Origin: Confluentibacter lentus
GTDB lineage: Bacteria > Bacteroidota > Bacteroidia > Flavobacteriales > Flavobacteriaceae
DNA length: 64,000 nucleotides
Assembly: GCF_002806995.1 (NCBI RefSeq)
Contig: NZ_NIHE01000001.1
Span: forward strand, 310,001-374,000
Direction of reading: 5' to 3'
The notes beneath the pieces were generated by a model that was given only the letters and a program-made list of their open reading frames with translations, ran no database searches and was not told the origin of the DNA. Positions 18,656-31,226 of the stretch are shown here, piece by piece; within the stretch, counting starts at the first letter, position 1; each line of letters begins with the position of its first letter. Both the position numbers and the translations under genes were made by a program.

Positions 18656-18820
18656 GTTGGGCGTAATTAACTAGAAACGTTTTTTGATTAAAAAGTTAAT
18701 ATAACTAGAAACTAAATGTCAGTCTGAGCGCAGTCGAAGACCTCGTAAACAAGCACTTCGACGCGCTCAGTGTGACAAATTTAACATCATTGACATTTAT
18801 TCTAGTTAATTACACCCAAC
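18656..18820. repeat. Nested palindromic intergenic repeat (REP/MITE-like)
   Basis: Outer 21-bp inverted repeats at 18656-18676 and 18800-18820 match with one mismatch (core GTAATTAACTAGAA). Inside them, TGTCAGTCTGAGCGCAGTCG (from 18718) pairs imperfectly with the complement of CGACGCGCTCAGTGTGACA (18759-18777). A further copy of AACTAGAAAC occurs at about 18704. The element fills the gap between the gntP gene and the dehydratase gene. No coding potential is seen. The GC-rich inner arms resemble dispersed intergenic repeats of Flavobacteriaceae. Confidence 0.8.
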
Positions 18821-31014: not shown

Positions 31015-31026
31015 TTTTAATAATCT

Positions 31027-31145
31027 TGTCAGTTCGAGTGATTTTCACCCAAAAAATAATGGGTGAAAATTGTATCGAGAACACGTTTTTACTTTTCTAA
31101 CGGTTCTCGATACAATGCTACTAATTCGCATCACTCGAACTGACA
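31027..31145. repeat. Cloverleaf-like nested inverted repeat
   Basis: The outer arms TGTCAGTTCGAGTGAT (31027-31042) and ATCACTCGAACTGACA (31130-31145) are perfect 16-bp complements. They enclose two more perfect hairpins: ATTTTCACCC/GGGTGAAAAT (31041-31050, 31061-31070) and ATTGTATCGAGAAC/GTTCTCGATACAAT (31069-31082, 31103-31116). The fold is a three-way junction in DNA or RNA. It sits in the gap after the EamA gene and probably also acts as a transcription barrier. It looks like a mobile intergenic repeat family. Confidence 0.85.
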
Positions 31146-31161
31146 GAAAAATTATTTTTAC

Positions 31162-31223
31162 TCTACGCTTGTAGAATTAAAATATTTGTTCTATGTTTGT
31201 AGAACATAATCTAATTTTGTAGA
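31162..31223. promoter_or_regulatory. Triple BlaI-type operator
   Basis: Three copies of TCTA-N6-TAGA lie just before the regulator gene: TCTACGCTTGTAGA (31162), TCTATGTTTGTAGA (31190) and TCTAATTTTGTAGA (31210). The spacers share (T/C)TTG. The middle copy extends to GTTCTA/TAGAAC. The last ends four bases before the ATG. This fits autorepression by the BlaI-family protein encoded next. Confidence 0.75.
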
Positions 31224-31226
31224 AGA

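Follow-up and report, generated by a model that had tools for sequence, protein, structure and literature searches.

In the flavobacterium Confluentibacter lentus, a highly palindromic stretch (positions 31027-31145 of the window, the whole 64,000-nucleotide stretch of DNA that was analyzed) has an EamA transporter gene on one side and a BlaI-type repressor gene on the other, and the two genes point in the same direction. A first-pass annotation saw in it a three-way junction made of three perfect stems and offered two readings, a REP-type element processed by a RAYT transposase or a structured RNA. Here, we ask what the element is, where its relatives are found, and which protein might mobilize it.

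Structure of the element

The palindromes are exactly where they had been placed. In the window sequence, a 16-bp outer stem (31027-31042/31130-31145), the arms of a 10-bp hairpin (31041-31050/31061-31070), and a 14-bp stem (31069-31082/31103-31116) are all exact. The picture of three separate stems did not hold, because bases 31041-31042 and 31069-31070 are each common to two stems, so that stems of 16, 10, and 14 bp cannot form simultaneously at full length; a fourth short arm (ATGC...GCAT, 31115-31131) had also been overlooked. The predicted fold of 31027-31145 reaches −63.3 kcal/mol as RNA (z, −11.8; 0/200 shuffles as good) and −40.3 kcal/mol as DNA (z, −13.0 versus shuffles).

The stretch 31027-31145 consists of a single repeat unit present twice, the copies being inverted and joined at their tails by a 20-nt spacer. 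Recast in these terms, the outer stem pairs head with head, the 14-bp stem pairs tail with tail, and the 10-bp stem is the apical hairpin of unit A. The features are as follows:

31028-31082, + strand: unit A, 55 nt; tag GTCA (T at 31027), foot GTTC, GA core, apical hairpin, tail TATCGAGAAC
31041-31070, + strand: apical hairpin of unit A; arms 31041-31050 and 31061-31070, loop 31051-31060
31083-31102, no strand: tail-to-tail spacer, 20 nt; the GIY-YIG gene occupies the same place in gene-bearing copies elsewhere
31103-31144, − strand: unit B, 42 nt, inverted; head GTCAGTTCGAGTG, short apical hairpin, tail TATCGAGAAC
31115-31131, − strand: short apical arm of unit B, ATGC...GCAT (from sequence and folding)

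Several known identities were tried and rejected. A phage or plasmid origin was set aside, as the element had no DNA match in phage and plasmid collections; membership of an Rfam family, as nothing in 31027-31145 reached the gathering score (a tRNA was the only match in the window); and an intrinsic terminator, as a scan of 31027-31145 found no terminator-like site. Inverted ends are present, but no exact empty site was obtained from which to judge a target-site duplication, the other mark of a transposon-derived MITE.

Copies and architecture of the repeat unit

A search of the C. lentus genome (G000) with the element returned 102 matching pieces, and the head motif GTCANTTCGAGTG occurs there 49 times exactly (reversed control, 0). 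At least 60 units were extracted from this genome, at least 76 from a congener (G002), and at least 40 from a member of another family of the same order (G048), counts that are lower bounds because extraction drew on fetched loci. A stricter unit pattern was present in 165/397 genomes of the family, and its reversed control was present in none. The unit consensus is TGTCA-N4-GA-G-variable hairpin-C-GA-N4′, in which N4 and N4′ covary inside each unit, and the observed lengths are 29 to 68 nt. A T precedes the head in 58/60 (G000), 73/76 (G002), and 40/40 (G048) units.

The variable base of the head is complementary to the last base of the tail in 58/60 units of C. lentus (shuffle mean, 27.4; maximum, 42; 20,000 shuffles) and 73/76 units of G002 (shuffle mean, 33.0; maximum, 49), or in 50/52 and 58/61, respectively, when each apical sequence is counted once. 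Complementarity is weaker in G048 (32/40 units; shuffle mean, 26.6; maximum, 34), with six of the other eight units showing G-T. Apical arms of at least 6 pairs were found in 52/59 and 67/75 units, compared with about 10% of shuffles, and the apical hairpins are diverse (51 distinct among 59). The earlier suggestion of a dispersed REP-type element is supported, and the lack of further copies and of compensatory changes that was to count against it is clearly not what we see: there are many copies in the own genome and in relatives, with strong covariation inside units.

In C. lentus and G002, the dispersed palindromes form inverted pairs, both head to head and tail to tail. Among 34 tail-to-tail pairs from these two genomes, the variable head bases match between units in just 5, compared with head/tail complementarity within 67/68 units of the same pairs; the constraint therefore lies on the single unit and not on a three-way junction, contrary to the constrained structure first proposed. 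Nor is a perfect outer stem a property of the family: a mismatch between units is usual, and the window pair is one of the few G/G pairs. Heads match in 8/10 pairs of G048, which tells nothing either way because nearly all heads there are G.

When single units are folded by energy, a register around TCGA is preferred instead. Covariation argues for the register given above over this one, and a second repeat type supports it: of 110 matches to GTCA-N4-GAG..TCGA-N4′, 76 have fully complementary 4-bp feet (shuffle mean, 10.7; maximum, 21; 5,000 shuffles), and the stems of these feet are of 21 kinds. A complementarity scan also located a second GTCA-tagged inverted pair in the window, of the type-2 kind, at 18718-18776 (GTCAGTCTGAGCGCAGTCGAAGAC on the + strand and GTCACACTGAGCGCGTCGAAGTG on the − strand).

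The slot orthologous to that of the window pair was compared in four genomes, three of which (C. lentus, G002, and G003) carry unit pairs whose apical hairpins differ. In the fourth (G004), the slot orthologous to window 31015-31226 has no recognizable unit. A run of GTGATTA tandem copies stands in that slot instead. This comparison of orthologous slots in four genomes found no exact filled/empty site pair.

Other repeat arrangements were noted along the way. In G048:C7 (L166, 1928-2433), five same-strand units follow one another in tandem at 113-bp spacing, whereas the own genus has inverted pairs, and same-strand units in G128 suggested integron-like arrays, the surrounding genes being inspected by eye only. 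Another dispersed repeat, with TTGGATTCCTGCCTGTGCAGGAAATC, lies at about 51876-51940 of contig C23 of C. lentus (L042, about 1297-1361); it matches many places in all four congeners and looks like a decayed CGTC-type palindrome.

A GIY-YIG gene between units

The list of genes around unit clusters revealed a gene of about 97 codons, assigned to Pfam GIY-YIG and flanked by units. Its C. lentus copy lies outside the window, between two inverted units (C23:52133-52423). PF01541 scores were 62 and 64.8 bits (cutoff, 22.6), and neither of the two GIY-YIG proteins scanned received a name from NCBIfam. An alignment of eight proteins (A1) has invariant residues Y7, Y17-T-G19, R27, and E65, which we take to be the catalytic positions of GIY-YIG. 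The nearest folds to the predicted structure (mean pLDDT, 87.5) are UPF0213 proteins, followed by Slx1, a nuclease for branched DNA. In the usual order, a same-strand unit lies 10 to 43 nt upstream of the start and an opposite-strand unit lies at the stop codon, an arrangement like that of the window pair except that a gene takes up the spacer.

As the loci that yielded the first genes had been chosen for their units, 397 genomes were searched with a protein profile, and 183 had a match at 1e-15. The profile was seeded with the eight A1 proteins, all from unit-fetched loci, and flanks were therefore also counted without the seed genomes. At the 30 best profile loci, accepting units with up to 3 mismatches, a downstream unit lies within 61 nt of 31/31 genes and an upstream unit within 75 nt of 27, and the full inverted layout is present at 24; among genes from genomes without a seed sequence, a unit lies within 11 nt of the stop codon in 23/23.

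Across the 397 genomes, units were present in 59/61 with a close GIY-YIG gene (E value of 1e-40 or better, a cutoff chosen in this analysis) versus 106/336 others (Fisher P value, 1.8e-23; odds ratio, 64; not corrected for phylogeny). Units also occur without the gene. No close GIY-YIG gene was found in 29/59 genomes with at least 10 units, congener G002 has no profile match at 1e-15 alongside its 76 extracted units, and the stretches of G002 and G004 that match the own-genome gene site carry units with no GIY-YIG gene.

Repeat types of the GIY-YIG clades

Twenty loci of a more distant GIY-YIG subgroup carry mostly another GTCA-tagged repeat in the same layout. We examined 73 genes in all, excluding rows with internal stops and exact duplicates. 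Type-1 repeats, the kind found at 31027-31145, flank 39/39 genes of the close clade, 17 of which matched both patterns and were counted as type 1, since the type-2 pattern also fits short type-1 units. The other 34 genes comprise 29 with type 2, 4 with none by pattern, and 1 with type 1; this last gene (G305), "other" by score, is a short copy that neighbors a close-clade gene, and the tree places it in the close clade. On the gene tree, which left out the 4/73 rows without a repeat label, the 40 type-1 rows make up one side of a branch (support, 100/93), and the label changes once, versus 22.4 times on average with shuffled labels. Both kinds of gene coexist in 13 genomes, with type-1 flanks at the close gene in 13/13 and type-2 flanks at one or more of the other genes in 12. 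Every GIY-YIG clade goes with a repeat type of its own, also where two clades share a genome. The sole GIY-YIG gene of C. lentus (at 1e-15) belongs to the clade other than that of the type-2 repeats.

Related genes in other phyla

On a plasmid record of Azospirillum lipoferum 4B, a GIY-YIG gene lies between sufB and sufC with CGTCATCCCCGCGAAGGCGGGGATCCA on both sides. Flanking palindromes were also seen by eye at GIY-YIG genes on plasmid records of Planktothrix, Spirosoma, Sinorhizobium, and Methylobacterium, 10 of the 40 listed matches of this plasmid survey having been inspected. One Bacillus subtilis locus (yazA) and a Legionella lytica gene had no flanking repeats. In Sphingomonas paeninsulae, a GIY-YIG gene with a broken reading frame lies between rnc and era (L304). 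Both sufB/sufC and rnc/era are gene pairs that are usually adjacent.

A genome scan for the Azospirillum/Sinorhizobium type found 163 relatives, and 80 loci were kept; it used a two-sequence alignment, a five-sequence alignment (A2) being too weakly conserved. Seventy of these loci were usable in a flank test (at least 100 bases on each side of the gene). Flanking inverted repeats with a score of at least 16 were found at 42/70 genes versus 6/316 control genes of the same loci, and 28/70 genes of this wider set had no clear flanking inverted repeat. The repeats are mostly CGTC tagged, with a CGTC-type motif on both sides of 35/70 genes versus 5/316 controls.

Two loci of Sphingomonas sp. IC081 share a gene-bearing stretch of 452 bp at 94.7% identity, and Sphingomonas sp. 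IC081 and Novosphingobium clariflavum share 509 bp at 97% identity. These cassettes are of the related CGTC kind, and the kilobases surrounding them are without further similarity. Near-identical cassettes amid unrelated surroundings are good evidence that the gene-bearing cassette moves.

Comparison with known systems

Passages of a 2013 survey that covered A. lipoferum (Di Nocera, De Gregorio and Rocco, PMC3733652) describe CGTC-tagged REPs as one of two REP superfamilies, state that they "apparently lack a dedicated transposase," and name their enzyme as an open question. In the same passages, these REPs have stems of 8 to 9 bp, loops of 4 to 5 bases, mostly CCA tails, and an unpaired tag that is CGTC, TGTC, or CCTC (PMC3733652). 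Set against that description, the window type shares an unpaired TGTC tag at the palindrome end (in nearly all units), inverted dimers, and dispersed copies, and it differs in its GA/GA core, 4-bp foot, long variable apical hairpin, and length of 29 to 68 nt. We regard it as related to the CGTC REPs and not as a member, because tag and pairing are shared, whereas stem, loop, and tail are not. The repeats flanking GIY-YIG genes in other phyla, those of A. lipoferum among them, resemble the CGTC REPs themselves when compared with the text of the survey.

The window system also resembles REP-RAYT/REPIN systems, with tagged imperfect hairpins, inverted pairs, gene-free copies, an enzyme gene between inverted repeats, and type specificity. 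It works like REP-RAYT yet is none, because the tag is TGTCA and not GTAG and the enzyme is a GIY-YIG nuclease and not an HUH tyrosine transposase. The protein itself is like the small GIY-YIG proteins of the UPF0213/YazA/YhbQ type in its PF01541 domain and fold. To our knowledge, such proteins are not known as repeat partners, and, unlike the window system, the single yazA locus inspected stands without a flanking repeat. In the open-licence papers searched, we found none linking GIY-YIG genes to REPs.

Alternative explanations

A RAYT, the processor proposed in the first-pass annotation, would be an HUH tyrosine transposase mobilizing the repeats as in classic REPs and either lost here or acting elsewhere. 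The REP-like units in inverted pairs would suit such an enzyme, and PF01797 genes occur in 157/397 relatives. A RAYT partner was nevertheless rejected: the PF01797 profile has no match in the own genome, a whole unit lies in the available flanking sequence of 0/57 RAYT loci from relatives (30 + 27 loci), and no GTAG tag stands at the hairpin foot, where nearly all units have TGTCA. The link between PF01797 and units is weak (units in 76/157 genomes with PF01797 versus 89/240 without; odds ratio, 1.6; P value, 0.03; not corrected for phylogeny), and PF01797 presence has little bearing on unit presence; we regard RAYT mobilization as very improbable. Weak PF01797 matches (about 22 to 40 bits, in open frames of about 180 to 220 amino acids) form a divergent Y1-like group that may be a separate subfamily. 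It is likewise highly unlikely that the element is a structured RNA, the other reading first offered, or a terminator, with a three-way junction conserved for function. A very stable predicted fold and a position between two same-direction genes would fit, but the Rfam and terminator scans were negative, the outer stem is not conserved between units (5/34), the apical hairpins vary greatly (51/59 distinct), and the orthologous G004 slot is without a recognizable unit. A secondary role of the element in a transcript is possible.

Two further readings accept the GIY-YIG gene and give it another part. The main rival, which we judge unlikely, is homing of the gene into repeats spread by something else; the GIY-YIG gene would be a homing-type selfish gene and the cognate repeat pair only its insertion target. 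GIY-YIG domains do occur in homing endonucleases, the unit-rich genomes without a close gene (29/59) leave room for this rival, and the G002 and G004 stretches at the own-genome gene site, with units and no GIY-YIG gene, are also in its favor. No other enzyme was found at the repeats, however, RAYTs not being associated with them, and the fixed layout, the downstream unit at the stop codon, and the correspondence between clade and repeat type suggest a single element inherited together, although a target-specific homing gene could also yield the fixed layout and the clade/type match. We give almost no credence to a host nuclease that merely clears hairpins, its gene lying near repeats for that reason. 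The branched-DNA nuclease Slx1 is among the nearest folds, and the B. subtilis relative yazA lies among housekeeping genes without repeats, yet the patchy presence of GIY-YIG genes (183/397 genomes at 1e-15), with several copies per genome, speaks against such a role, and the near-identical cassettes in unrelated surroundings and the sufB/sufC placement look like a mobile gene.

Proposed mechanism and implications

We consider it likely that these are REP elements with a GIY-YIG nuclease in place of a RAYT and that the window holds a gene-free unit pair of that mobile system. The GIY-YIG genes are associated with the repeats, and the association is specific to repeat type; that the nuclease cuts and mobilizes the units is what we infer. 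When its cognate unit is single-stranded or extruded, as might happen at replication forks, the nuclease would recognize the tag and the foot of the hairpin and would nick the unit there. Repair or template switching would copy units, the pair, or the unit-gene-unit cassette to new or repeat-bearing sites, and gene-free pairs such as that of the window would spread or be replaced in trans. Copying into repeat-bearing sites would explain the different hairpins in one intergenic slot of three species. We know of no strand-transfer activity in a GIY-YIG nuclease, so host repair would have to do the copying.

On balance, and with more reserve, we favor a broader reading, in which the TGTC/CGTC-tagged REPs of Bacteroidota, Proteobacteria, Patescibacteria, and other phyla would constitute an undescribed, widespread element whose sole protein is the GIY-YIG nuclease of about 97 amino acids, with no transposase or recombinase. 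This element would be a second, independently evolved counterpart of REP-RAYT, and its nuclease would be the missing enzyme of the CGTC REPs.

If true, this may explain the spread of a large class of repeats for which no enzyme is known. With a gene family that lies between CGTC-type repeats and is clade specific, the enzyme question raised in 2013 becomes directly testable. The finding would bring in a nuclease superfamily that, to judge from the open-licence papers searched, had no earlier link to REPs, and it would suggest a function for many genes annotated only as "GIY-YIG nuclease family protein." It would also supply small nuclease-hairpin pairs for biochemistry.
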